Origin: Odiellus spinosus
Lineage: Eukaryota; Arthropoda; Arachnida; Opiliones; Phalangiidae
NCBI GenBank assembly: GCA_963920705.1
Contig: OY987230.1
Location: 11,743,320 to 11,807,319, forward strand
Reading direction: 5' to 3'
Length of the DNA stretch: 64,000 nt
Below the pieces are notes generated by a model. It was given only the letters and a program-made list of their open reading frames with translations, was not told the origin of the DNA and searched no databases. Shown piece after piece: positions 19,621-42,505 of this stretch. The position numbers and the translations under genes are program-made. How positions within the stretch are numbered: position 1 is the first letter of the stretch; each line of letters begins with the position of its first letter.

Positions 19621-19689
19621 ACAGTCTAGTGCCATGGTAGTTTAAGAATTCATACCGAAATACGTCCAAAACTATGCGAATGTCGTAAT

Positions 19690-20217
19690 AAATATTTTAT
19701 AAATTTGCATATTTTCCGTAATTTATATTTTAGGAATTTGCATATTTTTCGTAATTTAGATTTTAGGAATTTGCATATTTTTGGTAATTTATATTTTAGA
19801 AATTTGCATATTTTCCGTAATTTATATTTTAGGAATTTGCATATTTTTCGTAATTTAGATTTTAGGAATTTGCATATTTTTGGTAATTTATATTTTAGAA
19901 ATTTGCATATTTTCCGTAATTTATATTTTAGGAATTTGCATATTTTTCGTAATTTAGATTTTAGGAATTTGCATATTTTTGGTAATTTATATTTTAGAAA
20001 TTTGCATATTTTCCGTAATTTATATTTTAGAAATTTGCATATTTTCCGTAAATTGTATTTTAGAAATTTGCTTATTTTCCGTTAATTATATTTTAGAAAT
20101 TACCATATTCTCCGTAATTTATATTTTAGAAATTACCATATTCTCCGTAAATTATATTATAGAAATTACCATATTCTACGTAATTTATATTTTAGAAATT
20201 TGCATATTTTCCTTAAT
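19690..20217. repeat. 33-bp minisatellite with 99-bp higher-order organisation
   Basis: About sixteen copies of a 33-bp unit (core ATTTGCATATTTTCCGTAA, then TTTATATTTTAGGAA). In 19705-20000 three variants alternate in fixed order: a CCGTAATTTAT form, a TCGTAATTTAGAT form and a TGGTAATTTAT form. This gives three rounds of a 99-bp higher-order unit. The distal copies (20040-20217) diverge, with TACCATATTCTCCG variants. Because 33 is a multiple of three, long chance reading frames run through it. Those 126-aa and 82-aa frames are products of periodicity, not genes. Confidence 0.9.
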
Positions 20218-23200: not shown

Positions 23201-25173
23201 AGTGAAAAACCGATGGAGTCAGTTTCTTAGATAGCTTGGAAATTTATTTAAATTAAATTGGTTTTCTTAAAGGGATAATGAAAGCGAGAAACTGACTAAG
23301 ATGGTCATCGAATTCTGTAAATTAATTTAACTTAAATGTTTGTTAAATATCGTAAAAAGATTGTGCAAACTCTTTTAATTTAAAACCGCTCCTTTGCAAA
23401 AAAAAAAAAAAAAAAAAAAAAACGCGTTTTCAAAGAGTGTTTGAATCGAATACTTTTTCACGCAATGATAACGTCGCGTTTGTTACCTAAGTTACGTTCA
23501 CACTAGACTTTGAACACGATTTTAACCGTTTTGGAAAGGTCAAATCGTAAAAGTTTGAGGTCAACTCTAAAGATCAAGGGTTAAAATTTAAAATTACTAT
23601 CTTGAAAAGTTGATTTGAACATTCGAAACGATTTGAAAAGGTCCCAAAAGCTCTAGAGAATTATATATTATGATTATAACACTATTATAACTAAACAAAT
23701 GTTTACTATTGAATTCCCCCGAACTTTCATGAACACAGGCAAAACTTGGCTTCTACTCTTATAAATCTCAATACAATTCTTGTCCGTTTGTCCTGGTGAA
23801 ATCGGATGTAATATGATTATAATTAGAACCTTTTAAAATTCACGTTTCATCATCCCTTTTATCGGTTTTTACATTCATCGTGTACAAAATCAAGCTCCCA
23901 TCTATCTCTAAGAGACAAAACCATAGAGTTAAAATTTGAGCTTCAGTTTATACTTGCTGTAAACCCTGGGTTGAATATGTTTATTTGATATTTTTTTTTC
24001 TTTCGTTTTTTTGGATAGATTTTTCTACAGGGAATTTTTAGGGAAAGTAAACTACTTTTTTTTTTTCACGAGTAGTATAGAGAATGATTGAAGAACGTGA
24101 AAAAGTGGTTGAAGATTGCAAGGTCTTTAATGAAGCCCCTTGAAAATGGCTGTTCGTGATTGTGGGCGTTCACCCAATACCCTATATTGATCCTCCTATA
24201 GAAGGGCTTTCCCGCCATGTACTTGTTAAATTGGTTGGGCGTGTATAGCATATACTTTAGAAAGAACTGCATCTTCAGCGATGAGCAGCTGCTTCTTTTC
24301 ATTGTACCAACGGAACCAACTTAATGTAAGCTGGTTTCCAATCCCACCCTATCTCGCTTTACAGCGAGGTTTTACGCGAGAGTGAGTGGGCCAATGGGGC
24401 TCGCCCTTTAATTAGGAAAATACATAATGCAGATTAGCCTATAGTGTGTCAATGCTGCTCGTACATGTTTTTGAAGTTTAAATTGAATATGTAGTATTCA
24501 TTTCAATTAAAAATATTCCTCGATTTGGAAATTATTGAGCTATTGTAGATGGAATTAAAACTACAAATATTGTTTGAGAAATTTAAAATTTTTAATTAAG
24601 GTTTAAACCATTAATTAAAGTTGTTTAAATATATAATTCTTATATGGTTAATAAATTAAATATTAAAGATTACCGCAATCATTCAGGTATGACTAATTCA
24701 CGATTAAGTAAACTAGTTTTAAATTTAATGCACTTAATTTTGTTTAATTAGATCATATTACTCCTATGAGCTGAATTTACTCACTAAGAAGCTCACAGGA
24801 CACATTTTTTTTTCCCTATATCCTACAATGAAGACCTTAATTACCTTTCGTGCAAGGCTGATGGCAAAAACTACTTTTAATTCTAGTAGATTTAACACGT
24901 TGTATTCCTCTGCCTTAGTTTTCTATATTATAGTTTCCAAATAACTCTTGAAGCAAAGTCTTTAAGTGCTTATGGTCCTTTTTTTCTACTTCAATGTCTT
25001 CTAACACACGTTTTAACGTATATGTCAATGGGGCCCCTCGCTCTTTCGTAATTGTAGGTCTTCCGTTCTTTTATCCTCGCATCGTATGCGGGCGTAGTTC
25101 AGCGTATTGTTTCGTTCTTGAAAAGAGAGAGAGTCTAATTTTGGGAACTCTCATTACATTATATTCAACCCTC
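20218..25173. other. Non-coding stretch, no gene recognised
   Basis: AT-rich DNA with a moderately CpG-rich patch (21720-21980, including CATGGCAAC), a CT tract (about 22421-22432), AGGGAGAATGAAA-like MITE ends at about 22546-22560 and 23267-23284, and a poly-A run at about 23399-23422. The sequence ACGTTCACACTAGACTTTG near 23489 belongs to a dispersed repeat also seen at 44273 and 62629. Confidence 0.4.
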
Positions 25174-25279
25174 GGAGTAGGGGGAAAATGAGCGTACTGC
25201 CCCACTTGGGAGCCGATGGAGCCGATGGAGCCGGGAGCTCAAAATGGCGCCCATTTTTTTATTTTTATTTTTATTATTC

Positions 25280-25283
<4 letters not shown>

Positions 25284-25310
<27 letters not shown>

Positions 25311-25380
25311 CATCCGGGTTTCGAACCTGGTACCCAATGTATGTGAGGTAAGTGCATTAGCAGACTACGCCGTCTTCTCA
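25284..25380 (-). ncRNA. tRNA-like pol III module (SINE-like), left arm, facing outward
   Basis: Mirror copy of the module at 37327-37425. On the minus strand it has an A-box-like GGCGTAGTCTG, a perfect B box GGTTCGAAACC and a homopolymer tail of 27 bases, followed by TTTT on the transcribed strand. The tail is two bases longer than in the right arm. Confidence 0.55.
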
Positions 25381-25404
25381 TATCAACTTTAAAAATATTT
25401 TCCA

Positions 25405-25770
25405 TCCTTATCTATATTCTCGGTTCTTATCTCTGTGTACATTTATCACTGAAAGTTTAAATGATAAGGCGCCAAATCAAATGCGATTCTATAACCTATA
25501 CTGAAACCTCTTTAAGCCTTTATCGTTTTCGAATTCCGCGCGGGTTTCCTATCGTATTATCACCTATGCCAGATCTTATCTTAAAACTCATTGGAAAAAT
25601 AAATATATTTTTATATTCTTGTTTCTTATCTCTATGTTCATATATCACATGATTGAAAGTTTAAATGATAAGGCGCTAAATCAAATGTGAATCTATAACC
25701 TATACTGAAACCTCTTAAAGCCTTTATCGTTTTCGAATTTCGCGCGGTTCTCCTATCAGTAGTATCATGT
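25405..25770. repeat. Direct repeat, two copies of about 165 bp (left arm)
   Basis: Copies at about 25405-25568 and 25604-25770 share TATCTCT, GAAAGTTTAAATGATAAGGC, CTATAACCTATACTGAAACC and GCCTTTATCGTTTTCGAATT with scattered substitutions. They lie between the tRNA-like module and the first promoter. The function is unknown. The mirror copy is at 36937-37302. Confidence 0.75.
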
Positions 25771-26054
25771 TATCGACAAAAGTCTTTGCGTGTCCTATCT
25801 CAAATCACACCAGATAAATTGATGGATTTTCAAATATCTTAACAAATAACTACAAGAATTTCCCCAAGTAAACATAACTATAAATTTTAACTACAAATAT
25901 ACAATTATTTGTCTTAAACATTATAATAAATGCGGAAAAATACTCAAACAAGTTGGCGAACACCACGATATCAAATTAAAATTGGAAAGTTAGGCCTAAT
26001 TACAACGTGTATGAAAATTGAAATACACTAATGATATATACAATTAAAGCCCGT

Positions 26055-26354
26055 GGTTAAACCCTACGCGGCATTGGTAAAACGTACTTCCAAAGTTCAA
26101 GTACTGATATGACGCTTGGTAAAAACCTACGCGTCATTGGTAAAACCTATTTCACAACTCAAGTACTGATTTGACGCTGAATCGCTTGGTAAAACCCTAC
26201 GCGTCATTGGTAAAACCTATTTCACAACTTATATGACTCATATTTCTAGGTTTAAAAGCGGGTTTTATCGGGGAAATACGTTGAAACTCGTGGTAAAACC
26301 CAACACTTCTTCGAGAAAACCAATTTCTCAACTGATATGACACCTATTTTAGAG
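26055..26354 (+). promoter_or_regulatory. Promoter-proximal tandem repeats upstream of the PC4-like gene (left arm)
   Basis: Four diverged units of about 62-70 bp start at 26055, 26118, 26188 and 26292. Each begins GGTAAAACCCTACGCGTCATT or a variant and ends near ACTGATATGAC. The last abuts the TATA box. One unit contains an AP-1/bZIP-type TGACTCA (26234-26240). The arrangement looks like an upstream activating region. The mirror copy is at 36353-36652. Confidence 0.6.
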
Positions 26355-26361
26355 TATAAAA
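26355..26361 (+). promoter_or_regulatory. TATA box of the PC4-like gene (left arm)
   Basis: TATAAAA lies about 75 bases before a consensus donor. A transcription start near 26385 would give a 5' leader of about 50 bases with no upstream ATG. Mirror at 36346-36352. Confidence 0.65.
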
Positions 26362-26435
26362 GCTAGGATATATTTTAGATAAGTCATTTAAAGCTGCCAT
26401 CAACCGTATTCAAGTCATCCACAAGAACACTAAAA

Positions 26436-27309
26436 ATGTAAGTAGCATTTTACTCTAAAATTAACTTATAAATTATTTGTGCCACCCTAAATAACTTGGA
26501 AATTATTAACCTAACCCTAAATAACTTTGAAATTTTCACTGTCCTCTTAAATAACTTAGTAATTTTTATTCCTGACATCTTATTATTAGTATAAAACCTC
26601 AATTAACTTAGCCGTTTCTATCATTTACAGGGACAACACGAACGTATTCGAAATCTCATCGAGAAAATCGGTCACAGTTACTCCCGAATGTGAAATTAGA
26701 CTTGGATTTACTGATGGATCCACTGGAATTAATCTCAGCGAGGATGAGTACTTTCAAATATACCGAATGAGGGAAGAAATCACGCAATACTTCCAAAACG
26801 AGGGTGCAAGTCCTTCGTCAGTTTTCTTGGAAGGGTCAAACAATAAACGGGTGGAACTCAAGTCATACCAGGACCGGAAGATGCTTATTATCCGTGAAAT
26901 GACGACGGGAAACGGGAAGAACTATGGGATGTTATTTCCCACTAAAAATGGATTCGCCATCGGAGGAGTTCTATGGGAGAAACTCTTGGAAAAGCATCAA
27001 CAAGTTGAAATCATGCTTAACGAAACTAAGAAAGTCTACCAAGCTATAAAGGACATAGTAGTTTCACAGCTAACGGAACTTATTAAAAACTCGTGTAACG
27101 GGTGTCTCATTGACCATCCATCGCAATTACAGCACGATTGTTTAACCTATGATTGGGCTGAGCGTGTAGAAATGAATTTTTCAACTGCGATTAATAATTT
27201 AAATATCCAATTAATTACTGAAATTTTTAATAATTCAACTTTTTTAAGTTTCGAATTTTGTAAGCAAATGGTGACTAGAATTATTTGCATTTCGAAACAA
27301 TATTTGTAA
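26436..27309 (+). CDS. Spliced gene for a two-domain PC4-like ssDNA-binding protein (left arm)
   Basis: Exon 1 ends AAAAAT at 26437, before donor GTAAGT. The intron is 26438-26630 and ends TTTACAG. Exon 2 starts GGACAAC. Splicing joins AT and G into the start codon and opens an uninterrupted frame of 226 residues, longer than the 180-residue frame from the internal ATG at 26767. Residues about 66-122 match the PC4/Sub1 coactivator pattern: a basic strand (NKRVELKSY), a central strand plus IREM, a GNGK turn, then NGFAIGGVLWEKL before a helix. Residues about 7-47 have the same order (RKSVTV, DGSTGINL, EDEYFQIY), suggesting a tandem duplicate. Known PC4 domains bind single-stranded DNA and act in transcription, repair or replication. 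The C-terminal half is helical, with cysteines CNGC (about 155-158). AATAAA follows at 27316. This copy has Ile at residue 87; the other arm has Asn. The assignment is by motif, not by search. Confidence 0.7.
26438..26630 (+). other. Intron splitting the ATG of the PC4-like gene (left arm)
   Basis: A 193-base AT-rich intron with donor GTAAGT and acceptor TTTACAG. It contains repeated TAAATAACTT words (about 26488-26555). It interrupts the start codon between its second and third base, so unspliced RNA cannot start at this ATG. Mirror at 36077-36269. Confidence 0.7.
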
Positions 27310-27470
27310 ATACAAAATAAAATTCCGAATTTCAAACTGTTAAATATGACATTTCTTAATATTGATATCAAAAGTAGGCAAATAAAACTTTCATATTCTG
27401 TTCATATCAAATGGGTAAGGATAATTTCCCCAGAGTGGAAAGGGTGAGAAAAAGGACTTAGAATTAATCA

Positions 27471-27566
27471 GTGACTCATTGTTTAATTATCAAAGTTTAA
27501 GTTCTCACCAAGCATCATCATCTCTTCCGGTAATACTAAAAGTCTTTAACTTAAGTTAGTTACATT
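27471..27566 (+). promoter_or_regulatory. Promoter region of the C2H2 gene (left arm)
   Basis: GTGACTCATTGTTTAA at 27471-27486 differs at one base of sixteen from GTGACTCATGGTTTAA ahead of the next TATA promoter (28956-28971). Both contain TGACTCA and are followed by an ATCATCA start-like sequence. No canonical TATA box is seen here; TTTAAG stands in the equivalent place. Mirror at 35141-35236. Confidence 0.5.
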
Positions 27567-28238
27567 ATGGTCATCTGTCGCAATTGTGGGGCTAAGTTTT
27601 CCCAAGTTGGAAGATTACTTCAACATGCTCGAGAAAAACACGAGTATGAAGAATTCCCGTGTAAATTTTGCAACGTATACTTCACAAAGAAGGAGCACCT
27701 CACCATCCATAGTCTATCCCGCCATAAGGAAGAAACGAGTCGTGAATCCATCCTGAAACGAGCTCGATCCATGGAATCTATCGAGAACGTTAAGAAGACG
27801 AAGATGAACGAGACTACATCCCAGACTATCGCCATAATCGCATCTATCAACGATGTCCCGTCATCCTCCAGCGATGTCCCGTCCACTTCTACCGATGGTC
27901 CATCATCACCCAACGATGTCTTATCACCTTCCAACGATGTCCCGATCACTTCAGCTGATGGTCCGTCCGTCCCCAACGTAGCTCCAGACGTTTCATTTAC
28001 CACATCATCAAACATCCAACCCACTGAGAACCTTAACAACGACAGGAAGAATTTACATCAACCCTTCCGGCTATATGTATGTGCGAAGAACGAAATTTAT
28101 TCGATGTCGGGTCGTGAATTATCACTCCACGATATATATAAAAATACTGTCAACATTCATCGTCCAAGACTTGGAAGAAATATTCGTAAAAAGTACAGTG
28201 GAGTATTACGAAGATTTTATAGATGTATACGAGGATGA
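27567..28238 (+). CDS. Two-finger C2H2 zinc-finger protein, 223 aa (left arm)
   Basis: Starts at the first ATG after the promoter region. Two adjacent classical fingers fill the N-terminus: C4, C7, H20, H25 and C32, C35, H48, H53, both C-X2-C-X12-H-X4-H. A basic stretch (KRARS, about residue 64) follows. A Ser/Pro/Asp-rich linker (about 94-141) is built from repeats of (S/T)xxD(V/G)PS, encoded by an in-frame minisatellite with a 24-base period. The C-terminus is basic (RLGRNIRKKY). It is probably a nuclear DNA-binding protein encoded by the element. The last 164 bases overlap the frame at 28075 in the +1 direction, so the natural product may continue into that frame by frameshifting or splicing. 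The antisense 139-aa frame is a shadow of the linker. No ortholog is recognised. Confidence 0.75.
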   Translation: MVICRNCGAKFSQVGRLLQHAREKHEYEEFPCKFCNVYFTKKEHLTIHSLSRHKEETSRESILKRARSMESIENVKKTKMNETTSQTIAIIASINDVPSSSSDVPSTSTDGPSSPNDVLSPSNDVPITSADGPSVPNVAPDVSFTTSSNIQPTENLNNDRKNLHQPFRLYVCAKNEIYSMSGRELSLHDIYKNTVNIHRPRLGRNIRKKYSGVLRRFYRCIRG

Positions 28239-28716
28239 TGAGGACGAGTGGGATGACGTGCTGAATGATTCCTTAAACATAATTATAGATCCGAGCGTCA
28301 AGTTATCATGGTTTCAATACAATAGAGTGTTGAACACAGAATACAGTGACCCACCCCCATACTTCATAACAGGTAATCACATTATCACATCGTACTATTC
28401 GGTGCGTAGGAAATATTTCGAGAAGTATCGAAGATTACGTATGTGTAGCGATTGCTTCCAGCTTGAAGGCGTTATATCTTCCGAAGACGACGTTGATCAC
28501 ATTCAATACCACGGATACATAAACCCCGAAAACGTAGGAGAAATAGTCACCAACGTGTTTGCTACATGGTGTAACAATTGTTTACGTACGCCCTTATTTA
28601 AATTTTTGGATGATGTACGTTGTAAAGTATTAACTAAGTTTCATGTTGATAAAATTAATTTATTTACTACCGAAGAGAATGACGACGTACGAACGGTTAT
28701 AAAACGTAGCAAATAA
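28075..28716 (+). CDS. Acidic CxxC-CxxC protein in the +1 frame, up to 213 aa (left arm)
   Basis: An open frame of 213 codons overlapping the C2H2 gene by 164 bases, one base forward. It has an acidic block (VYEDDEDEWDDVLND, residues 51-65), then an aromatic-rich segment, then two cysteine pairs, C124-x-x-C127 and C166-x-x-C169, spaced like a zinc ribbon. The first 30 residues after its ATG look poor. Strong coding character begins near QDLEEIF (31-37), so translation may enter by a +1 frameshift or a short intron from the C2H2 frame instead of at this ATG. The TAA stop sits within an AATAAA (28712-28717), and another AATAAA lies at 28773. The function is unknown. Both arms carry the same frame arrangement. 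Confidence 0.6.
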   Translation: MYVRRTKFIRCRVVNYHSTIYIKILSTFIVQDLEEIFVKSTVEYYEDFIDVYEDDEDEWDDVLNDSLNIIIDPSVKLSWFQYNRVLNTEYSDPPPYFITGNHIITSYYSVRRKYFEKYRRLRMCSDCFQLEGVISSEDDVDHIQYHGYINPENVGEIVTNVFATWCNNCLRTPLFKFLDDVRCKVLTKFHVDKINLFTTEENDDVRTVIKRSK

Positions 28717-28955
28717 ATTTGCCATTTTCATGTATAATTTTCATATGTATAATCAATAATAGTGTTTAATTCAATAAAATGGGATATATTAATCTTTCTA
28801 CTGAAAATCTCTTATTTTTTTCTAACTTCACCATCCTACGAACATTATCACGTTTATCTCTACAAATATTTACTTATAACGAGAAAAGTTTCTTTCCTTT
28901 CATCATTTAAAAATAAACAAGATTCAACTCAAACGTTGTTTCCCCATCTTAATCG

Positions 28956-29094
28956 GTGACTCATGGTTTAAGGTAATAGGAGGGTATAAATAGTGAATTT
29001 TTCAAATCCTAATCATCACAACCTACAACCCCATCCTCGTCAAAAGGAAGAGAAAAAATAAATCTTCACCTCCATCTCCAGAAAATTTCTATCG
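28956..29094 (+). promoter_or_regulatory. TATA promoter and first exon of an unassigned transcript (left arm)
   Basis: TGACTCA (28957-28963), then TATAAATA (28985-28992), then an ATCATCACA start-like sequence about 30 bases on. A leader without ATG reaches a strong donor, ATCG|GTAAGC (donor at 29095). The spacing is like the PC4-like gene promoter. No downstream coding exon on this strand was recognised, and the transcript would run antisense to the 89-aa frame. It may be non-coding, or its coding exon may be small. Mirror at 33613-33751. Confidence 0.5.
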
Positions 29095-29106
29095 GTAAGC
29101 ATGAAA

Positions 29107-29352
29107 TATATTTTAACGCTGTTAAAATAGGTATTTACGTTAACTCTTAGTTGAAATATAAAATAGCTTTCTACACTAAACTTTAGTTTAAATATAAAAC
29201 AATATATTTTAACGTAGTATTTAAAGTAGTTATCTTCGCTAACCTTTAGTTTAAATTTAAAATAGTTTTCCACGCTAAACTCTAGTTTAAATATACAATA
29301 GTCTTCTACGTTAACCTATAGTTTAAATATAAAATAGATATCTACGTTAATC
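29107..29352. repeat. Tandem repeats of about 42 bp after the splice donor (left arm)
   Basis: Five to six diverged units containing (A/T)ACGTTAAC and TAGTTTAAATATAAAATAG. They lie inside the predicted intron that begins at 29095. The 77-aa frame on the other strand is repeat-driven and starts at GTG. Mirror at 33355-33600. Confidence 0.75.
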
Positions 29353-29418
29353 TTTAGATAGGGTATAGAAATTGATTCATAGTATTCCCAAGTCAATCCA
29401 TATTTAGTTGAGAATTCA

Positions 29419-29688
29419 TTATTGGGCATCAATTAGAGCGTATAGTTCAACTTTTTCAAAATCGTTATTTATCTCCAAAGTGATCATATATTTTGTCTTT
29501 AGATCAATCAACAATAGCCGAATGATGTGAAGTACCCCGCAATTATCAACTCTCTTGCCCGAGATGTGATAACGATCTCGCGTCAGTTCCAGCTCTCGGG
29601 AAACTGCTACACTTTTACATGTCCCGTGATTGCTTTCAACATAGGAAGTGTGTATTGATTCAACAAAAGAAGTATTACCGTCCGTCAT
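29419..29688 (-). CDS. Small outward-facing frame, 89 aa (left arm)
   Basis: Mirror copy of 33019-33288, transcribed from the centre toward the left end and therefore convergent with the C2H2 gene. The first in-frame ATG gives 89 residues; the longer 135-residue frame begins at TTG in AT-rich DNA and is not preferred. The sequence is polar at the start (MTDGNTSFVESIH), has a basic middle (RELELTRDRYHISGKRV), then a hydrophobic stretch (GVLHIIRLLLIDL, residues 51-63) too short to be a sure membrane span. No family is recognised. Codon use is balanced, unlike flanking AT DNA, which supports a real gene. Confidence 0.45.
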   Translation of the reverse strand: MTDGNTSFVESIHTSYVESNHGTCKSVAVSRELELTRDRYHISGKRVDNCGVLHIIRLLLIDLKTKYMITLEINNDFEKVELYALIDAQ

Positions 29689-29974
29689 TATCGAGTGAAC
29701 AGGCAGTAATGCCTGATGAGCGTTGTTCTGCCGGTGGTGTTCAGAGTTTAAAATATACGATAAAAAATATTTGTGATTGCATAAAAATAAATTGTTAATT
29801 AAAATTTTTATAGTAAATGAATCCAATCTCTGAAATTATTTATACTTAAGCCTACTATATTTAGTAAAGCCTACAAATAACGTCGGATATCTAAGTTAGC
29901 CTATACCAATCTAGGATATATATATATATGACAATATTCAAGCTAATCGAAATAGAATAATAAAGGGGTATTAT

Positions 29975-31255
29975 GAAATTGTTCGAGATAAATGAGTAAA
30001 AATGACTAAACACCGTCATAAAATGTCCAATCGTCGAGAAAAAATCGTGTGAAAAAGACGAAAAATCTCAATCTTTAAGCGTGACACAAATTAAAGGCGC
30101 AAGAAACGTCTAAGTATCGGGAGAGTCTAACTAACTAGATTAAGTAACAAAGACGGAAGTGTAAGCGTCGAACGAATTGATAAAAATTGTAAATAGAAAA
30201 TATGATAAATCAAACTGAAAAAAAGTACGTTGAAATTGATTAGCGGTGGGACAAATTAATTAAACCGTGAAAAACGTCTAAATATCGATAGAAGATAATA
30301 AGGTTGTGAAAGAAAATTGTTAATGTAATGAAAACATCAAAGACGCAGATAATTGATTGAAACCGGTGTAATATATTAAAAAGACGGGAGTAAAATTGTC
30401 TAAAGACGCAGATAAATAATTGAAACCGGTGTAATATATTAAAAAGACGGGAGTAAAATTGTCTAAGAGCCGTCATAAAATGTATAAGCGTCGAACAAAG
30501 TGATCTAAAATTAGGGAAAACGATAAAAATGTTTAAGTAGTGAAATAGTTTAACAAAGTTGGAAGATAAAACGTCCAAGTGTCGGGAAAATAACGAAGAT
30601 GCGGATATTAATGTCGGAGACTCAAAACTAAATAGGAAAGGAGAGGGATTTTAATATTGAAATACCGAAAGAAGTTAACACTTGATTCGTAAAAATACAA
30701 TGTTTCTGTAAAATAACAGATACTCGACAAAAGCATTATTACTCTTTGGGTTAGTTTCTTGTACGTATTTTCTACGAATACTATGCCGCGACGTGATGAT
30801 AATTTAACCGCGCGTGTTTAAAATTTGAATCGCACACGTGAACCGCTTAACATAGAGATAAGCAAAAACACGACTACAGTTTCTGGAACGTTTTTAGCAA
30901 GGCTCAATCGTAAAAAGAAGCAAAATCCGCTTTCAACCTTTTCACCAGTATACGATAAAACGACGAAAAATTTGTTTATTCGGTAAAACAAATTAACATA
31001 ACCGTGAAAAAAGTCTAAATATTGGAGAAGTTAATATAAAGCGGAATGAAACGTCTAAGTTTCGGCATAAACAACAGCAATGTCGAAGAAGCGAAACAAA
31101 ATAACAGGTCTAAATCAAGGGAGAAATTAACAAAGACGTAAGAAAAACATCTAATTAACGCGATAAGGAAGCAAAGACGGGAATGAAAATGTGAAGGTAC
31201 GTCATAAAATATCCAAGTGTCGATTCAAATTAACAAAATCGTGGGTAAAATTGTA
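29975..31255. repeat. Iteron-like degenerate repeats of about 37 bp (left arm)
   Basis: About 1.3 kb built from diverged units with the words AAACGTCTAAGTATCGGGA, ATTAACAAAGACG and CGTCATAAAATGTCCAAGTG. Two consecutive 66-base copies near 30346-30475 (GAAACCGGTGTAATATATTA) are nearly identical. Such arrays next to a hairpin or origin resemble iterons or viral homologous regions, but the role here is inference. The 112-aa frame in it is a product of the repeats. Mirror at 31452-32732. Confidence 0.65.
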
Positions 31256-31284
31256 TTTGTCACCATCCTCATCGTCGACGATTC

Positions 31285-31298
31285 TAACCTAACCTAAC
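31285..31298 (-). repeat. Three TTAGG units beside the centre (left arm)
   Basis: TAACCTAACCTAAC, which reads as TTAGG telomere-type repeats on the minus strand, 36 bases from the end of the left arm. Mirror copy on the plus strand at 31409-31422. Too short to prove telomeric origin. Confidence 0.5.
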
Positions 31299-31326
31299 TT
31301 CGCGAAATTACATCAGGATGAATGGC

Positions 31327-31380
31327 GGGGCGCCGTCAACTCCTTGGCGATCCGCCAAGGAGATTGAAAAGAGGCGCCCC
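31327..31380. repeat. Central imperfect hairpin of the giant palindrome
   Basis: Outer stem GGGGCGCC/GGCGCCCC (31327-31334 and 31373-31380). An unequal internal bubble follows (5 bases GTCAA on the left, 10 bases ATTGAAAAGA on the right), then a 10-bp inner stem CTCCTTGGCG/CGCCAAGGAG (31340-31349 and 31353-31362) around the 3-base loop ATC. Unequal bubbles in terminal hairpins are a known feature of hairpin-ended viral genomes. The GC content is far above that of the arms. Confidence 0.85.
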
Positions 31381-31408
31381 GCCATTCATCCTGATGTAAT
31401 TTCGCGAA

Positions 31409-31422
31409 GTTAGGTTAGGTTA
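31409..31422 (+). repeat. Three TTAGG units beside the centre (right arm)
   Basis: Mirror of 31285-31298: GTTAGGTTAGGTTA on the plus strand. Confidence 0.5.
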
Positions 31423-31451
31423 GAATCGTCGACGATGAGGATGGTGACAAA

Positions 31452-32732
31452 TACAATTTTACCCACGATTTTGTTAATTTGAATCGACACTTGGATATTT
31501 TATGACGTACCTTCACATTTTCATTCCCGTCTTTGCTTCCTTATCGCGTTAATTAGATGTTTTTCTTACGTCTTTGTTAATTTCTCCCTTGATTTAGACC
31601 TGTTATTTTGTTTCGCTTCTTCGACATTGCTGTTGTTTATGCCGAAACTTAGACGTTTCATTCCGCTTTATATTAACTTCTCCAATATTTAGACTTTTTT
31701 CACGGTTATGTTAATTTGTTTTACCGAATAAACAAATTTTTCGTCGTTTTATCGTATACTGGTGAAAAGGTTGAAAGCGGATTTTGCTTCTTTTTACGAT
31801 TGAGCCTTGCTAAAAACGTTCCAGAAACTGTAGTCGTGTTTTTGCTTATCTCTATGTTAAGCGGTTCACGTGTGCGATTCAAATTTTAAACACGCGCGGT
31901 TAAATTATCATCACGTCGCGGCATAGTATTCGTAGAAAATACGTACAAGAAACTAACCCAAAGAGTAATAATGCTTTTGTCGAGTATCTGTTATTTTACA
32001 GAAACATTGTATTTTTACGAATCAAGTGTTAACTTCTTTCGGTATTTCAATATTAAAATCCCTCTCCTTTCCTATTTAGTTTTGAGTCTCCGACATTAAT
32101 ATCCGCATCTTCGTTATTTTCCCGACACTTGGACGTTTTATCTTCCAACTTTGTTAAACTATTTCACTACTTAAACATTTTTATCGTTTTCCCTAATTTT
32201 AGATCACTTTGTTCGACGCTTATACATTTTATGACGGCTCTTAGACAATTTTACTCCCGTCTTTTTAATATATTACACCGGTTTCAATTATTTATCTGCG
32301 TCTTTAGACAATTTTACTCCCGTCTTTTTAATATATTACACCGGTTTCAATCAATTATCTGCGTCTTTGATGTTTTCATTACATTAACAATTTTCTTTCA
32401 CAACCTTATTATCTTCTATCGATATTTAGACGTTTTTCACGGTTTAATTAATTTGTCCCACCGCTAATCAATTTCAACGTACTTTTTTTCAGTTTGATTT
32501 ATCATATTTTCTATTTACAATTTTTATCAATTCGTTCGACGCTTACACTTCCGTCTTTGTTACTTAATCTAGTTAGTTAGACTCTCCCGATACTTAGACG
32601 TTTCTTGCGCCTTTAATTTGTGTCACGCTTAAAGATTGAGATTTTTCGTCTTTTTCACACGATTTTTTCTCGACGATTGGACATTTTATGACGGTGTTTA
32701 GTCATTTTTACTCATTTATCTCGAACAATTTC
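31452..32732. repeat. Iteron-like degenerate repeats (right arm)
   Basis: Mirror of 29975-31255. The same words appear as complements, such as CCCGATACTTAGACGTTT and GACGTTTTATC. The 112-aa frame at 32129-32467 is repeat-driven. Confidence 0.65.
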
Positions 32733-33018
32733 ATAATACCCCTTTATTATTCTATTTCGATTAGCTTGAATATTGTCATATATATATATATCCTAGATTG
32801 GTATAGGCTAACTTAGATATCCGACGTTATTTGTAGGCTTTACTAAATATAGTAGGCTTAAGTATAAATAATTTCAGAGATTGGATTCATTTACTATAAA
32901 AATTTTAATTAACAATTTATTTTTATGCAATCACAAATATTTTTTATCGTATATTTTAAACTCTGAACACCACCGGCAGAACAACGCTCATCAGGCATTA
33001 CTGCCTGTTCACTCGATA

Positions 33019-33288
33019 ATGACGGACGGTAATACTTCTTTTGTTGAATCAATACACACTTCCTATGTTGAAAGCAATCACGGGACATGTAAAAGTGTAG
33101 CAGTTTCCCGAGAGCTGGAACTGACGCGAGATCGTTATCACATCTCGGGCAAGAGAGTTGATAATTGCGGGGTACTTCACATCATTCGGCTATTGTTGAT
33201 TGATCTAAAGACAAAATATATGATCACTTTGGAGATAAATAACGATTTTGAAAAAGTTGAACTATACGCTCTAATTGATGCCCAATAA
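33019..33288 (+). CDS. Small outward-facing frame, 89 aa (right arm)
   Basis: Identical to the left-arm copy at 29419-29688. Two TATA-like sequences lie upstream, GTATAAATAA (about 32861-32870) and TATATTTTA (about 32949-32957); the nearer one is well placed for the ATG at 33019. It is transcribed away from the centre, toward the convergent CxxC/C2H2 genes. No family is recognised. Confidence 0.45.
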   Translation: MTDGNTSFVESIHTSYVESNHGTCKSVAVSRELELTRDRYHISGKRVDNCGVLHIIRLLLIDLKTKYMITLEINNDFEKVELYALIDAQ

Positions 33289-33354
33289 TGAATTCTCAAC
33301 TAAATATGGATTGACTTGGGAATACTATGAATCAATTTCTATACCCTATCTAAA

Positions 33355-33600
33355 GATTAACGTAGATATCTATTTTATATTTAAACTATAGGTTAACGTA
33401 GAAGACTATTGTATATTTAAACTAGAGTTTAGCGTGGAAAACTATTTTAAATTTAAACTAAAGGTTAGCGAAGATAACTACTTTAAATACTACGTTAAAA
33501 TATATTGTTTTATATTTAAACTAAAGTTTAGTGTAGAAAGCTATTTTATATTTCAACTAAGAGTTAACGTAAATACCTATTTTAACAGCGTTAAAATATA
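33355..33600. repeat. Tandem repeats of about 42 bp (right arm)
   Basis: Mirror of 29107-29352, inside the predicted intron of the antisense TATA transcript. Confidence 0.75.
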
Positions 33601-33612
33601 TTTCATGCTTAC

Positions 33613-33751
33613 CGATAGAAATTTTCTGGAGATGGAGGTGAAGATTTATTTTTTCTCTTCCTTTTGACGAGGATGGGGTTGTAGGTTGTGATGATTAGGA
33701 TTTGAAAAATTCACTATTTATACCCTCCTATTACCTTAAACCATGAGTCAC
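33613..33751 (-). promoter_or_regulatory. TATA promoter and first exon of an unassigned transcript (right arm)
   Basis: Mirror of 28956-29094: TGACTCA (33744-33750), TATAAATA (33715-33722) and the donor bounding an ATG-less exon at 33613. Confidence 0.5.
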
Positions 33752-33990
33752 CGATTAAGATGGGGAAACAACGTTTGAGTTGAATCTTGTTTATTTTTAA
33801 ATGATGAAAGGAAAGAAACTTTTCTCGTTATAAGTAAATATTTGTAGAGATAAACGTGATAATGTTCGTAGGATGGTGAAGTTAGAAAAAAATAAGAGAT
33901 TTTCAGTAGAAAGATTAATATATCCCATTTTATTGAATTAAACACTATTATTGATTATACATATGAAAATTATACATGAAAATGGCAAAT

Positions 33991-34632
33991 TTATTTGCTA
34001 CGTTTTATAACCGTTCGTACGTCGTCATTCTCTTCGGTAGTAAATAAATTAATTTTATCAACATGAAACTTAGTTAATACTTTACAACGTACATCATCCA
34101 AAAATTTAAATAAGGGCGTACGTAAACAATTGTTACACCATGTAGCAAACACGTTGGTGACTATTTCTCCTACGTTTTCGGGGTTTATGTATCCGTGGTA
34201 TTGAATGTGATCAACGTCGTCTTCGGAAGATATAACGCCTTCAAGCTGGAAGCAATCGCTACACATACGTAATCTTCGATACTTCTCGAAATATTTCCTA
34301 CGCACCGAATAGTACGATGTGATAATGTGATTACCTGTTATGAAGTATGGGGGTGGGTCACTGTATTCTGTGTTCAACACTCTATTGTATTGAAACCATG
34401 ATAACTTGACGCTCGGATCTATAATTATGTTTAAGGAATCATTCAGCACGTCATCCCACTCGTCCTCATCATCCTCGTATACATCTATAAAATCTTCGTA
34501 ATACTCCACTGTACTTTTTACGAATATTTCTTCCAAGTCTTGGACGATGAATGTTGACAGTATTTTTATATATATCGTGGAGTGATAATTCACGACCCGA
34601 CATCGAATAAATTTCGTTCTTCGCACATACAT
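33991..34632 (-). CDS. Acidic CxxC-CxxC protein in the +1 frame (right arm)
   Basis: The translation is identical to the copy at 28075-28716, including the acidic block (residues 51-65), both CxxC pairs and the 164-base overlap with the C2H2 frame. Because both arms share the overlap, it predates the duplication or has been homogenised. It is therefore not a sequencing slip unique to one copy. Confidence 0.6.
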   Translation of the reverse strand: MYVRRTKFIRCRVVNYHSTIYIKILSTFIVQDLEEIFVKSTVEYYEDFIDVYEDDEDEWDDVLNDSLNIIIDPSVKLSWFQYNRVLNTEYSDPPPYFITGNHIITSYYSVRRKYFEKYRRLRMCSDCFQLEGVISSEDDVDHIQYHGYINPENVGEIVTNVFATWCNNCLRTPLFKFLDDVRCKVLTKFHVDKINLFTTEENDDVRTVIKRSK

Positions 34633-35140
34633 ATAGCCGGAAGGGTTGATGTAAATTCTTCCTGTCGTTGTTAAGGTTCTCAGTGGGTTGGATGTTTGAT
34701 GATGTGGTAAATGAAACGTCTGGAGCTACGTTGGGGACGGACGGACCATCAGCTGAAGTGATCGGGACATCGTTGGAAGGTGATAAGACATCGTTGGGTG
34801 ATGATGGACCATCGGTAGAAGTGGACGGGACATCGCTGGAGGATGACGGGACATCGTTGATAGATGCGATTATGGCGATAGTCTGGGATGTAGTCTCGTT
34901 CATCTTCGTCTTCTTAACGTTCTCGATAGATTCCATGGATCGAGCTCGTTTCAGGATGGATTCACGACTCGTTTCTTCCTTATGGCGGGATAGACTATGG
35001 ATGGTGAGGTGCTCCTTCTTTGTGAAGTATACGTTGCAAAATTTACACGGGAATTCTTCATACTCGTGTTTTTCTCGAGCATGTTGAAGTAATCTTCCAA
35101 CTTGGGAAAACTTAGCCCCACAATTGCGACAGATGACCAT
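34469..35140 (-). CDS. Two-finger C2H2 zinc-finger protein (right arm)
   Basis: The translation is identical to the copy at 27567-28238: two C-X2-C-X12-H-X4-H fingers, a basic patch, a repeat-built Ser/Pro/Asp linker and a basic end. The upstream TGACTCA module is at 35221-35236. Confidence 0.75.
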   Translation of the reverse strand: MVICRNCGAKFSQVGRLLQHAREKHEYEEFPCKFCNVYFTKKEHLTIHSLSRHKEETSRESILKRARSMESIENVKKTKMNETTSQTIAIIASINDVPSSSSDVPSTSTDGPSSPNDVLSPSNDVPITSADGPSVPNVAPDVSFTTSSNIQPTENLNNDRKNLHQPFRLYVCAKNEIYSMSGRELSLHDIYKNTVNIHRPRLGRNIRKKYSGVLRRFYRCIRG

Positions 35141-35397
35141 AATGTAACTAACTTAAGTTAAAGACTTTTAGTATTACCGGAAGAGATGATGATGCTTGGT
35201 GAGAACTTAAACTTTGATAATTAAACAATGAGTCACTGATTAATTCTAAGTCCTTTTTCTCACCCTTTCCACTCTGGGGAAATTATCCTTACCCATTTGA
35301 TATGAACAGAATATGAAAGTTTTATTTGCCTACTTTTGATATCAATATTAAGAAATGTCATATTTAACAGTTTGAAATTCGGAATTTTATTTTGTAT

Positions 35398-36271
35398 TTA
35401 CAAATATTGTTTCGAAATGCAAATAATTCTAGTCACCATTTGCTTACAAAATTCGAAACTTAAAAAAGTTGAATTATTAAAAATTTCAGTAATTAATTGG
35501 ATATTTAAATTATTAATCGCAGTTGAAAAATTCATTTCTACACGCTCAGCCCAATCATAGGTTAAACAATCGTGCTGTAATTGCGATGGATGGTCAATGA
35601 GACACCCGTTACACGAGTTTTTAATAAGTTCCGTTAGCTGTGAAACTACTATGTCCTTTATAGCTTGGTAGACTTTCTTAGTTTCGTTAAGCATGATTTC
35701 AACTTGTTGATGCTTTTCCAAGAGTTTCTCCCATAGAACTCCTCCGATGGCGAATCCATTTTTAGTGGGAAATAACATCCCATAGTTCTTCCCGTTTCCC
35801 GTCGTCATTTCACGGATATTAAGCATCTTCCGGTCCTGGTATGACTTGAGTTCCACCCGTTTATTGTTTGACCCTTCCAAGAAAACTGACGAAGGACTTG
35901 CACCCTCGTTTTGGAAGTATTGCGTGATTTCTTCCCTCATTCGGTATATTTGAAAGTACTCATCCTCGCTGAGATTAATTCCAGTGGATCCATCAGTAAA
36001 TCCAAGTCTAATTTCACATTCGGGAGTAACTGTGACCGATTTTCTCGATGAGATTTCGAATACGTTCGTGTTGTCCCTGTAAATGATAGAAACGGCTAAG
36101 TTAATTGAGGTTTTATACTAATAATAAGATGTCAGGAATAAAAATTACTAAGTTATTTAAGAGGACAGTGAAAATTTCAAAGTTATTTAGGGTTAGGTTA
36201 ATAATTTCCAAGTTATTTAGGGTGGCACAAATAATTTATAAGTTAATTTTAGAGTAAAATGCTACTTACAT
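35398..36271 (-). CDS. Spliced gene for a two-domain PC4-like protein (right arm)
   Basis: Mirror of 26436-27309, with the same split start codon (intron 36077-36269) and frame. The single base difference between arms (35819) makes residue 87 Asn here and Ile in the left copy. It falls in the central strand just before IRE. PC4 proteins usually carry an acidic or polar residue directly before that IRE motif, so the Asn form may be the older state. TATA box at 36346-36352. Confidence 0.7.
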
Positions 36272-36345
36272 TTTTAGTGTTCTTGTGGATGACTTGAATA
36301 CGGTTGATGGCAGCTTTAAATGACTTATCTAAAATATATCCTAGC

Positions 36346-36652
36346 TTTTATACTCTAAAATAGGTGTCATATCAGTTGAGAAATTGGTTTTCTCGAAGAA
36401 GTGTTGGGTTTTACCACGAGTTTCAACGTATTTCCCCGATAAAACCCGCTTTTAAACCTAGAAATATGAGTCATATAAGTTGTGAAATAGGTTTTACCAA
36501 TGACGCGTAGGGTTTTACCAAGCGATTCAGCGTCAAATCAGTACTTGAGTTGTGAAATAGGTTTTACCAATGACGCGTAGGTTTTTACCAAGCGTCATAT
36601 CAGTACTTGAACTTTGGAAGTACGTTTTACCAATGCCGCGTAGGGTTTAACC
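36346..36652 (-). promoter_or_regulatory. TATA box and upstream repeats of the PC4-like gene (right arm)
   Basis: Mirror of 26055-26361: TATAAAA plus four units of about 62-70 bp, one with TGACTCA. Confidence 0.6.
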
Positions 36653-36936
36653 ACGGGCTTTAATTGTATATATCATTAGTGTATTTCAATTTTCATACAC
36701 GTTGTAATTAGGCCTAACTTTCCAATTTTAATTTGATATCGTGGTGTTCGCCAACTTGTTTGAGTATTTTTCCGCATTTATTATAATGTTTAAGACAAAT
36801 AATTGTATATTTGTAGTTAAAATTTATAGTTATGTTTACTTGGGGAAATTCTTGTAGTTATTTGTTAAGATATTTGAAAATCCATCAATTTATCTGGTGT
36901 GATTTGAGATAGGACACGCAAAGACTTTTGTCGATA

Positions 36937-37302
36937 ACATGATACTACTGATAGGAGAACCGCGCGAAATTCGAAAACGATAAAGGCTTTAAGAGGTTTC
37001 AGTATAGGTTATAGATTCACATTTGATTTAGCGCCTTATCATTTAAACTTTCAATCATGTGATATATGAACATAGAGATAAGAAACAAGAATATAAAAAT
37101 ATATTTATTTTTCCAATGAGTTTTAAGATAAGATCTGGCATAGGTGATAATACGATAGGAAACCCGCGCGGAATTCGAAAACGATAAAGGCTTAAAGAGG
37201 TTTCAGTATAGGTTATAGAATCGCATTTGATTTGGCGCCTTATCATTTAAACTTTCAGTGATAAATGTACACAGAGATAAGAACCGAGAATATAGATAAG
37301 GA
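36937..37302. repeat. Direct repeat, two copies of about 165 bp (right arm)
   Basis: Mirror of 25405-25770. Confidence 0.75.
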
Positions 37303-37326
37303 TGGAAAATATTTTTAAAGTTGATA

Positions 37327-37425
37327 TGAGAAGACGGCGTAGTCTGCTAATGCACTTACCTCACATACATTGGGTACCAGGTTCGAAACCCGGATGAAAA
37401 AAAAAAAAAAAAAAAAAAAAATTTT
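37327..37425 (+). ncRNA. tRNA-like pol III module (SINE-like), right arm, facing outward
   Basis: A-box-like GGCGTAGTCTG (37336-37346) and perfect B box GGTTCGAAACC (37380-37390), 34 bases apart as in tRNA genes. A D-arm can pair (GCGT with ATGC), and the T-arm pairs with one mismatch. The would-be anticodon loop CTCACAT suggests a Val-type ancestor. The anticodon and acceptor stems do not pair, so it is not a functional tRNA. A 25-base poly-A (37397-37421) is followed at once by TTTT, a pol III stop. It looks tRNA-derived and SINE-like, aimed outward 105 bases from the end. Confidence 0.6.
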
Positions 37426-37627
37426 GAATAATAAAAATAAAAATAAAAAAATGGGCGCCATTTTGAGCTCCCGGCTCCATCGGCTCCATCGGCTCCCAAG
37501 TGGGGCAGTACGCTCATTTTCCCCCTACTCCTCGGCCTTAAATGAGATTTTTATCCCTGCTTGTAGTCTATTGTCCTCTTTTAACCCTAACCGTAATTAA
37601 GTTTTAAGTACCGAGACGAACTCTTAC

Positions 37628-37774
37628 GCTTGACCTCTATGTACCCAAAAAGAAAGTTGTGTGTTTTTTTTTTTTAGCTGAAATGACAAAGTTTCCAAAT
37701 TCAAACAACTTGGAAACTTTGTCATTTTAGTTAAAAGAAAAACAACTTTCTTTTTGGGTACATTTAGGTCAAGC
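37628..37774. mobile_element. Nearly fully palindromic MITE-like hairpin (147 bp)
   Basis: GCTTGACCTCTATGTACCC at the left pairs with GGGTACATTTAGGTCAAGC at the right. The stem continues through AAAGAAAGTTG/CAACTTTCTTT and AAATGACAAAGTTTCCAA. The loop is about 10 bases. No clear target duplication. It sits 94 bases outside the giant palindrome. Confidence 0.8.
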
Positions 37775-42000: not shown

Positions 42001-42505
42001 GAAATGCATTAAATATTGGTTGAATAGGATAAGCTATGAATTTTGAAATTGGTCAAAAAGGGTCAAGTATGAATTTTAAATATTGGTCCAAATAAGGTCA
42101 CCTATGAATTTTAAATGTTGGTCGAATAGGGTCCGCAATAAATTGTAAATATTGGTCGAATAGGGCCAGCTATGAATTGTAAATATTGGTCGAATAGGGT
42201 CAGCTATGAATTGTAAATATTGGTCGAATAGGGTCAGTTATAACTTAAATATTGGTCGAATAGGGTCAGCTATGAATTTTTAAATATGAGTAGAATAGGG
42301 TCAGCTATAAATTGTAAATATTGGTCGAATAGGGTCAGCTATTTAATTTTAAATATTGGTCTTATAGGTCAGATATTTAATTTTAAATATTGGTCTTATA
42401 GGTCAGCTATGAACTTTAATTTTTTTCGAAGTAGTCATCTATGAATTTTAATATTAGTCAAAAAGGGTTAGCTATAAAAATTAAAATTGGTTGCTACGGT
42501 CAGTA
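42001..42505. repeat. Minisatellite of about 34 bp
   Basis: About fourteen copies of TATTGGTCGAATAGGGTCAG followed by CTATGAATTGTAAA. The central copies (42120-42340) are the most alike and the edges decay, as in arrays that expand from the middle. Confidence 0.85.

Follow-up and report, generated by a model that had tools for sequence, protein, structure and literature searches.

Organization of the palindromic locus

Comparison of the window (the whole 64,000-nucleotide stretch of Odiellus spinosus DNA analyzed here) with itself yielded a single inverted match, in which positions 25174-37531 align onto themselves with 99.84% identity. An earlier note on this DNA had described a near-perfect palindrome with arms differing by 1 base and one 2-base homopolymer step, and both statements hold: arms of 6.16 kb surround an asymmetric loop of 38 nt, and the arm-to-arm alignment revealed a sole substitution (26888 T/35819 A) and a sole length difference, a 2-nt poly-T step at 25284-25285. 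In the same alignment, the flanks outside the palindrome did not align to each other. Because the outermost 2 paired bases are part of the target-site duplication, the true termini lie at 25176 and 37529. The features of the locus are as follows.

25170..25175, no strand: left target-site duplication CCTCGG, same letters as 37530-37535
25176..37529, no strand: entire palindromic element of 12,354 bp, with tips AGTAGGGGG...CCCCCTACT
25176..31334, + strand: left arm, corresponding to the polymerase side of a Maverick but with the polymerase replaced
26436..26437, + strand: coding part of PC4 gene exon 1 (AT of the start codon), predicted splice
26438..26630, + strand: PC4 gene intron, GT...AG, predicted
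26631..27309, + strand: PC4-domain gene exon 2, 226-aa product
27567..28238, + strand: C2H2 zinc-finger ORF, 223 aa
28075..28716, + strand: third ORF, 213 aa, in another frame and overlapping the C2H2 ORF, no family
28985..29357, + strand: fourth transcription unit, TATA box at 28985, splice-donor-like site near 29096, 36-bp repeats
30786..30846, + strand: GC-rich stretch related to H1 (79% over 62 positions), which in full-type Mavericks separates the convergent gene blocks
31335..31372, no strand: asymmetric central loop, 10-bp side hairpin and A-rich tail
31373..37529, - strand: right arm, the left arm in inverted orientation
33991..34632, - strand: right-arm third ORF, inverted copy
34469..35140, - strand: right-arm C2H2 ORF, inverted copy
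35398..36076, - strand: right-arm PC4 exon 2, inverted copy
37530..37535, no strand: right target-site duplication CCTCGG, same letters as 25170-25175

The center of the palindrome is predicted to adopt a T-shaped fold with the 10-bp side hairpin, and its loop recurs, in either orientation and with 1-nt differences in two cases, in 9 of 11 copies of the family.

Genes of the arms

Besides a C2H2 zinc-finger ORF and a third ORF, each arm carries a PC4-domain gene, for which an intron is predicted. The several genes, TATA promoter, predicted intron and repeats that had been noted earlier are indeed there, but the count of four predicted proteins is reduced to three, since the fourth transcription unit contains no convincing ORF. 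The 180-aa ORF of the PC4 gene matches PF02229 with an E value of 2e-5, 0.6 bit below the curated cut-off, and protein searches recovered 2 relatives (69% and 60%), both from Logan contigs. The dN/dS of the gene is 0.15 against C215 and 0.07 against Maverick L040; within the window family, where changes are few, the ratio is uninformative. The AlphaFold model of the protein, built on an alignment of 3 sequences, is poor (pLDDT 53.5).

Neither the C2H2 ORF nor the third ORF had relatives in the protein search. The N-terminus of the former is homologous over 154 aa (36%, E 4e-23) to the leader of the C2H2-PolB gene in C215. The third ORF could be assigned to no family; its matches to thioredoxin are weak and span only about 40-50 residues, and we do not believe them. 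In the genome search, matches to the third-ORF DNA were confined to the paired copies, a single unpaired copy and some fragments; the PC4-only matches had none. No tRNA or Rfam match was obtained in the window, no relative of the PC4, PolB or capsid-like protein was detected in IMG/VR, and bacterial-style ORF lists and sigma-70 scans were of little use for this DNA.

A multicopy family with 6-bp target-site duplications

The 12.4-kb palindrome is a genuine mobile DNA element, and about a dozen of its kind occur in this genome. At least 12 inverted pairs of the arm gene block, including that of the window, are present in the same 443-Mb assembly: 25 full-length matches were found on 9 contigs, of which 24 form 12 inverted pairs. 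The 1 remaining match (C2, 31.07 Mb) is unpaired and is a candidate for a single 6.2-kb unit, for which the earlier note had proposed a search. The arms of 10 examined pairs, out of at least 11 sister pairs, are 99.2-99.9% alike.

All 19 elements for which both ends were located are flanked by an exact 6-bp target duplication, with no duplication of 7-10 bp (0/19) and no match in comparisons across elements (0/342). Among them, the 10 window-family copies tested all have complete tips and the exact duplication at both ends; the copy at C5, 2.88 Mb, the left end of which is broken, was outside this test. The exact duplications and the many separate insertions bear out the description of the locus as an inserted head-to-head dimer.

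Over approximately 3.6 kb, 0-3 substitutions separate the two arms of a copy, compared with up to 65 between copies, in agreement with the earlier view that the palindrome is either recent or homogenized. Of the private substitutions, 43 are shared by both arms of a copy and 12 are confined to one arm.

Relationship to full-type Mavericks

The full-type Mavericks of this genome, as pieced together from partial stretches, carry integrase, ATPase, protease, capsid and C2H2-PolB genes. They have in common with the palindrome the AGTAG... tips, the 6-bp duplication and the conserved PC4 gene. The tips were found at the located ends, the window end being set with the duplication in view, and conform to the AG...CT rule for Maverick/Polinton termini. 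Elements sharing these tips encode rve integrases (E 2.6e-12 and 1.8e-11, above the cut-off) and yielded, below the curated cut-offs, matches to an IVa2/FtsK-like ATPase, an adenovirus-type protease and a DJR-like capsid protein. The names PolB and capsid are presumptive, given on weak Pfam matches together with sequence motifs; no solved structure was found for the PolB fragment, and the three PolB fragments compared with PHROGs had no match. The nearest full-type relative, at C5 near 5.78-5.80 Mb, has a PC4 part 97% identical over 621 bp to that of the palindrome, as well as PolB, an integrase with one stop and tip matches.

Among PolB and integrase genes located within 8 kb of each other, 54 of 62 neighbor pairs are convergent, some of them inside palindromes. 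H1 lies between the convergent PolB and protease genes in the 5 elements probed. In Mavericks it folds no better than shuffled sequences (z -0.46 and -1.14), so that what points to it as a putative turning point is its location together with the shared sequence.

Among the ORFs scanned, the window arms encode no rve integrase and no capsid, protease or packaging ATPase, for all of which relatives provide matches. No polymerase was found in the window copy, its only counterpart there being the C2H2 ORF homologous to the C2H2-PolB leader, whereas related palindromes do have a polymerase. The earlier note could name no matching type; through its tips, target duplication and PC4 gene, the palindrome can now be linked to the Maverick/Polinton elements of the same genome. 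The arm appears to be the polymerase-side half of a Maverick in which the polymerase has been replaced; the third ORF and much of the inner arm matched none of the Maverick pieces examined.

Palindromes of both Maverick halves

Each arm of a palindrome at C15 has genes for an integrase and for penton-like and capsid-like proteins. The arms display 97.7-99.3% inverted identity, and the target duplication GACGCG flanks the element. This palindrome is made of the opposite, integrase/capsid half of a Maverick, and its center contains part of the central sequence found in the window palindrome (92% over 152 positions). A further palindrome family has open PolB frames of approximately 1,212 aa in both arms, and all 21 of the listed matches with a PolB frame of 1212 or 1231 aa lie within inverted pairs. 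One moiety is doubled head-to-head in each case, the polymerase side in the window family and C215 and the integrase/capsid side at C15. Gene pairs less than 15 kb apart are predominantly inverted rather than on the same strand (25 versus 2 for PolB, 14 versus 0 for integrase). The PolB genes diverge in 20 of the 25 inverted pairs, and no clean palindrome was present at the midpoint of 5 of 13 PolB pairs examined. Loops with a side hairpin and an A-tract are alike at the centers of distinct families, and the center of a C12 palindrome is predicted not to be T-shaped.

Origin of the palindromes

The palindrome probably arose from a Maverick/Polinton, a virus-like transposon, as a snap-back (self-complementary) derivative that integrated and now forms its own family. 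In its favor are the Maverick-type tips and exact 6-bp duplication, the sister inverted pairs, the tips and PC4 gene in common with full-type Mavericks, the palindrome of the opposite half with its partly shared center, the excess of inverted over same-strand gene pairs, the position of H1 and the private substitutions carried by both arms. An extrachromosomal Maverick would undergo protein-primed strand-displacement replication, during which synthesis would double back, presumably at a hairpin, close to the GC-rich stretch that separates the two convergent gene blocks. The fold-back would yield a molecule with the same tip at each end, either left-left (PC4/PolB side) or right-right (integrase/capsid side). 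Via its tips, such a molecule could be inserted by a Maverick integrase acting in trans. The window lineage would then have lost the polymerase, keeping the PC4 gene and the T-shaped central hairpin, and spread as a satellite of full Mavericks. Copying through the folded form may rewrite one arm from the other; arm identity could instead stem from gene conversion after insertion. Against the snap-back origin, the 20 of 25 divergent PolB pairs run opposite to a simple left-half fold-back of convergent Mavericks, and 5 of 13 PolB-pair midpoints are without a clean palindrome. The ordinary folding of H1, and the third ORF and inner arm that no Maverick piece examined explains, also count against it.

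We think it unlikely that the palindrome is instead the normal dimer of an approximately 6-kb linear replicon with a hairpin center and an open tip recognized by the integrase, full Mavericks being heterodimers of PolB and integrase/capsid segments and palindromes being homodimers. Equally doubtful is the corresponding bipartite Maverick-like replicon, with polymerase and integrase/capsid segments of approximately 6 kb each that would recombine at the hairpin into full Mavericks, the window family being a satellite segment; each segment would end in a protein-primed tip on one side and a T-shaped hairpin on the other, and the palindromes would be the integrated form of its genome rather than accidents. 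The similar loops of distinct families, the confinement of the listed 1212- and 1231-aa PolB frames to inverted pairs and the central sequence common to PolB-side and capsid-side palindromes speak for segments, whereas the pairing of all but the C2 match of the arm gene block, the convergence of PolB-integrase neighbors, as in undivided Mavericks, and the C12 center speak against them.

Gene-converted palindromes with near-identical arms are known, and the arms here are as alike, but a chromosomal inverted duplication formed after insertion is very improbable given the complete tips and exact duplications at both ends in 10/10 copies and the same center in 9/11. Fold-back elements of the Galileo/P type can likewise have very long inverted repeats; an ordinary transposon of such another superfamily is nonetheless hardly plausible, as no transposase domain was detected among the arm ORFs scanned and the tips, 6-bp duplication and PC4 gene are shared with the Mavericks of this genome. 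Finally, long perfect palindromes are a known class of assembly or amplification fold-back artefact, which the earlier note had considered, but this is scarcely credible in view of the unique flanks, distinct 6-bp duplications, recurring center, at least 12 inverted pairs, mutations shared by both arms and palindromes of both Maverick halves.

Comparison with known systems

Viral replication is known to generate snap-back genomes as by-products. The palindromes described here have the appearance of heritable families with multiple copies, and in one of these families both arms hold an open PolB frame. If of snap-back origin, they provide a genomic record of Maverick replication (turning points, tips and arm rewriting), open a satellite or defective-genome biology of Mavericks to testing and illustrate how palindromes that are long and gene-bearing can enter chromosomes yet remain nearly perfect. 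Our literature search, largely of open-access papers, found no description of palindromic or snap-back Polintons/Mavericks, and none is mentioned in the portions of PMC11071296, PMC11071308, PMC4028283, PMC6431247 and PMC12721341 covered by a term look-up.

The window element resembles Mavericks/Polintons (polintoviruses, adintoviruses) in its 6-bp duplication, the length given for Polintons in an excerpt of PMC10045372, and in its long inverted repeats. It differs from them in that the inverted repeats span nearly the entire element and in that integrase, capsid, ATPase and polymerase were not found in the window copy. Maverick/Polinton tips are of the AG...CT type with short repeats, as are those of the palindrome.

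The 5'-SBG and 3'-SBG of AAV, according to an excerpt of PMC8235507, are self-complementary, comprise the left or right half of the viral genome and can be symmetric or asymmetric. As in the palindromes, one half of the parent genome is doubled head-to-head around a turning point. However, the AAV molecules, as presented in that excerpt, are subgenomic parvovirus particles, whereas those described here are integrated multicopy Maverick-related families known from sequence, some of which, unlike AAV snap-back genomes, keep an open polymerase frame. Vierula and Bertrand, cited in PMC11071308, are reported to have described in 1992 a deletion derivative of the kalilo plasmid, which occurs as hairpin as well as duplex DNA; that derivative is a mitochondrial plasmid, whereas the window element belongs to an integrated nuclear family.

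Bidnaviruses, as outlined in an excerpt of PMC4061559, have two linear segments of approximately 6 kb, with PolB and terminal repeats derived from Polintons, the inverted terminal repeats being described there as free of parvovirus-like hairpins. Unlike the window family, they have a parvovirus-derived capsid and helicase.

A palindromic element and its relatives in the genome

Comparison of the window with itself yielded a single dominant inverted match, of 25174–37531 onto itself at 99.84% identity, in agreement with the long near-perfect palindrome described in the earlier note. Arm-to-arm alignment placed the asymmetric centre at 31335–31372 and revealed 2 differences between the arms, 1 substitution (26888 T/35819 A) and a poly-T tract differing in length by 2 nt (25284–25285); the flanks outside the palindrome ends did not align to one another. 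The element itself ends at 25176 and 37529, with the identical 6 bases CCTCGG adjoining either end, 2 bases of which extend the palindrome by chance beyond the element. Immediately to its right lies a separate imperfect fold-back hairpin of ~150 bp (37628–37774), and the window flanks contain tandem arrays of 33-bp and 34-bp units at 19684–20217 and 42009–42491.

The suspicion that the palindrome might be an artefact was not borne out, as it is one of a family. We searched the genome (443 Mb, 286 contigs), whose TTAGG-like repeats may point to an insect host, with a 1,950-bp block spanning the PC4 gene to the third ORF and scored 40 of 134 candidates, so that the copy counts are lower bounds. 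At least 25 full-length matches were found over 9 contigs, forming 12 inverted pairs (window included; hereafter the window family) and 1 unpaired match (C2 near 31.07 Mb). In 10 of the 11 other pairs, with both halves read, the arms within each pair are 99.2–99.9% alike; for the twelfth pair (C5, 0.68–0.70 Mb), the longest of the family, an 8-kb inner stretch (L032, C5:684500–692500) was read. It contains parts of the arm and additional repeats, the latter forming a large interior between the arms.

Flanks were compared for 19 elements, namely 10 window-family palindromes (window included), the related palindromes on C215 (PC4-polymerase side) and C15 (integrase-capsid side), a full-type Maverick on C17 (i.e., of the type with integrase, ATPase, protease, capsid, and C2H2-PolB genes), and 6 sites of a second palindrome family. 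Ends were located by their tips; for the window, placement of the end took the duplication into account. The comparison does not include the C5 copy at 2.88 Mb, which has a broken left end. In all 19 elements the flanking direct repeat measures exactly 6 bp, with no case of a 7–10 bp repeat, and none of 342 comparisons between flanks of different elements gave a match. Two insertions on C17, 1 palindrome (L027/L028) and 1 full-type Maverick (L040/L043), lie within tRNA-Gln-like sequence; ARAGORN called tRNA-Gln(ctg) at the joined empty site of the former and nothing at that of the latter, where the likeness was recognized by eye.

Relationship to Mavericks

The tip of the window-family copy on C7 matches the tips of 7 additional inverted pairs outside the family. 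The gene content of these pairs was assessed from pieces of 4, and full-type Mavericks are known here from partial stretches. The stretches read include:

L036, C8: packaging ATPase and rve integrase
L037, C17: tip and PC4 gene
L038, C15: integrase with chromodomain, penton-like ORF, capsid-like ORF
L039, C17: polymerase end, adenovirus-type protease, capsid-like ORF

Among these Maverick genes, the integrase alone exceeds the Pfam cut-off; the ATPase (E 2.5e-4), protease (6e-4), and chromodomain (1e-3) fall below the cut-offs, and the capsid (DJR-like, 0.054) and polymerase (0.017) matches are weak. One ORF is taken to be penton-like, and the polymerase is presumed to be one from the motifs DCNNLYG/DANNLYG, KLMNNAVYG (C215), and TDTDS, beside its Pfam match. 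The Maverick at C17:6136716–6147571 carries the PC4 gene at one end and the ATPase gene at the opposite end; its terminal repeat spans only ~420 bp, its target duplication is GCGATC, and its integrase match contains 4 stops. In the nearest full-type relative (C5 near 5.78–5.80 Mb), the PC4 part is 97% identical, with matches to the polymerase, integrase (1 stop), and tip. Judged by sequence, the window element most probably derives from Mavericks. A DNA_pol_B_2 profile search of the genome returned 161 matches, many within open frames of 1283–1298 aa, and a second, longer Maverick-like polymerase type appears to be abundant.

The C215 palindrome comprises the PC4 gene and a C2H2-polymerase gene, with an asymmetric centre of ~0.9 kb that holds a single copy of the last part of the latter. 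The C2H2 ORF of the window is homologous to the leader of this gene (36% over 154 aa, E 4e-23) and the third ORF displays no homology to it; the window arm thus corresponds to the polymerase-side half of a Maverick, its polymerase having been replaced. C210 apparently carries the C215 palindrome as well, and the two contigs could be duplicates or alternative haplotypes. The C15 palindrome (C15:2928311–2939573) represents the integrase/capsid side, with inverted matches of 97.7% (1170 bp), 99.3% (705 bp), and 98.8% (2074 bp), the target duplication GACGCG, and integrase, penton-like, and capsid-like genes in either arm; the second arm shows 1 stop in its integrase match and a capsid-like frame broken into 2. 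Its centre includes part of the window central sequence (92% over 152 positions). Within 15 kb, the integrase search gave 14 inverted versus 0 same-strand pairs (122 of 124 rows) and the polymerase search at least 25 versus 2 among the matches listed (150 of 170), figures that count gene pairs, only some of which were opened as palindromes.

Proposed origin and rewriting of the arms

For Polintons, protein-primed replication via a single-stranded intermediate has been suggested (PMC4061559). Were a replicating strand to turn back near H1, the GC-rich stretch between the convergent gene blocks of full-type Mavericks, a molecule with 2 copies of one half and 2 identical tips would result, which the Maverick integrase could insert. 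The same pattern, with one half duplicated, is displayed by AAV snap-back genomes, described as consisting of the left or right moiety, symmetric or asymmetric (PMC8235507). The window family would have evolved afterwards as its own lineage. We found no prior description of palindromic or snap-back Mavericks in the open-access papers searched.

Window-family copies share a common centre and third ORF and form 2 subgroups. Over 3.6 kb in 11 copies, the arms of one copy differ by 0–3 substitutions versus up to 65 between copies, and 43 private substitutions occur in both arms versus 12 in one. These figures indicate that one arm is regularly overwritten with the sequence of the other, whether before insertion or after it, and support the view of the earlier note that the arms are recent or homogenised.

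The second family is exemplified by the palindrome C5:3534696–3546415 (tips AGTAGTAGGTGAAAGGGGG), in which either arm contains a polymerase frame open over 1,212 aa and directed outward; the arms are 99.6% alike in the outer 2.9 kb and 98.9% in the central 1.9 kb. Five additional sites with equal polymerase score, of which the ends were read, have 1,212-aa frames in both arms (4 sites) or in one arm (C274), and exact 6-bp target duplications are present at all 6 sites. Among the matches listed, all 21 rows with 1212- or 1231-aa frames are in inverted pairs. Simple folding back of the left half of a convergent Maverick does not account for this lineage, and mainly on that ground we retain an alternative which we regard as unlikely, namely that the palindromes are hairpin-ended segments of a Maverick-like replicon.

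Centre and possible turning point

In 9 of 11 window-family copies the same 38-nt loop occupies the centre, facing either way and with 1-nt differences in 2; the C3 copy has a deletion at this position, whereas in the C5 copy at 2.88 Mb the arms are shorter and the turn falls at an AT repeat. The window centre is predicted to fold, as DNA, into a T shape, with a 10-bp hairpin at the side of a stem that measures 31 bp within the folded stretch. The midpoints of 13 polymerase pairs are palindromic in 8 (L047–L050, L053–L055, L057), partly so in 2 (L052, L060), and without palindrome in 3 (L051, L056, L058). By eye, a plan of stem, small side hairpin, and A-tract is present in 6 of the 8 (L047–L050, L053, L057), partly retained in L055, and not present in L054 (C12); the C5 centre of the second family is similar to it. 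The computed folds cover the window, L045, L047, L048, L053, and L054.

In all 5 full-type elements probed (4 matched against the fifth), H1 separates the polymerase gene from the protease gene convergent with it. H1 also constitutes the centre of the C12 palindrome and is near the centre of others; window positions 30786–30846 are related to it (79% over 62 positions). The H1 sequences of 2 Mavericks fold no better than shuffles (z −0.46 and −1.14).

Genes of the arm

Either arm carries a PC4-domain gene (PF02229, E 2e-5, slightly under the curated cut-off) whose start codon is predicted to be interrupted after AT by a 193-bp intron, a C2H2 zinc-finger ORF, and a third ORF in a different frame and without family. 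Of the 4 proteins predicted previously, 3 ORFs per arm were recovered, and the fourth unit has no convincing ORF:

TATA at 28985: fourth transcription unit, with donor-like site and 36-bp repeats

Relatives of the PC4 protein in public contigs display 69% and 60% identity. Of the 11 copies examined, 9 have an open PC4 frame in both arms and 2 have it interrupted in both, and the frame of the C2H2/third-ORF region varies from copy to copy. The dN/dS values of the PC4 gene, 0.15 between the window and C215 and 0.07 between the window and Maverick L040 (150 codons), point to purifying selection. Within the window family, the values (0.4–0.8 on few changes, 0–0.12 for 3 other pairs, 1 pair undefined) are uninformative because of the few changes.

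Just inside the tip of the window element (25313–25385, minus strand) is a tRNA-like stretch in which the B-box GGTTCGAAACC precedes an A-run. Window-family copies and C215 have such stretches at the corresponding position by their tips, as variants that differ between copies; ARAGORN called no tRNA in the 6 tips tried. Finally, TGACTCAT occurs 3 times on the plus strand of the arm (26234, 27472, 28957), once upstream of each of 3 transcription units.
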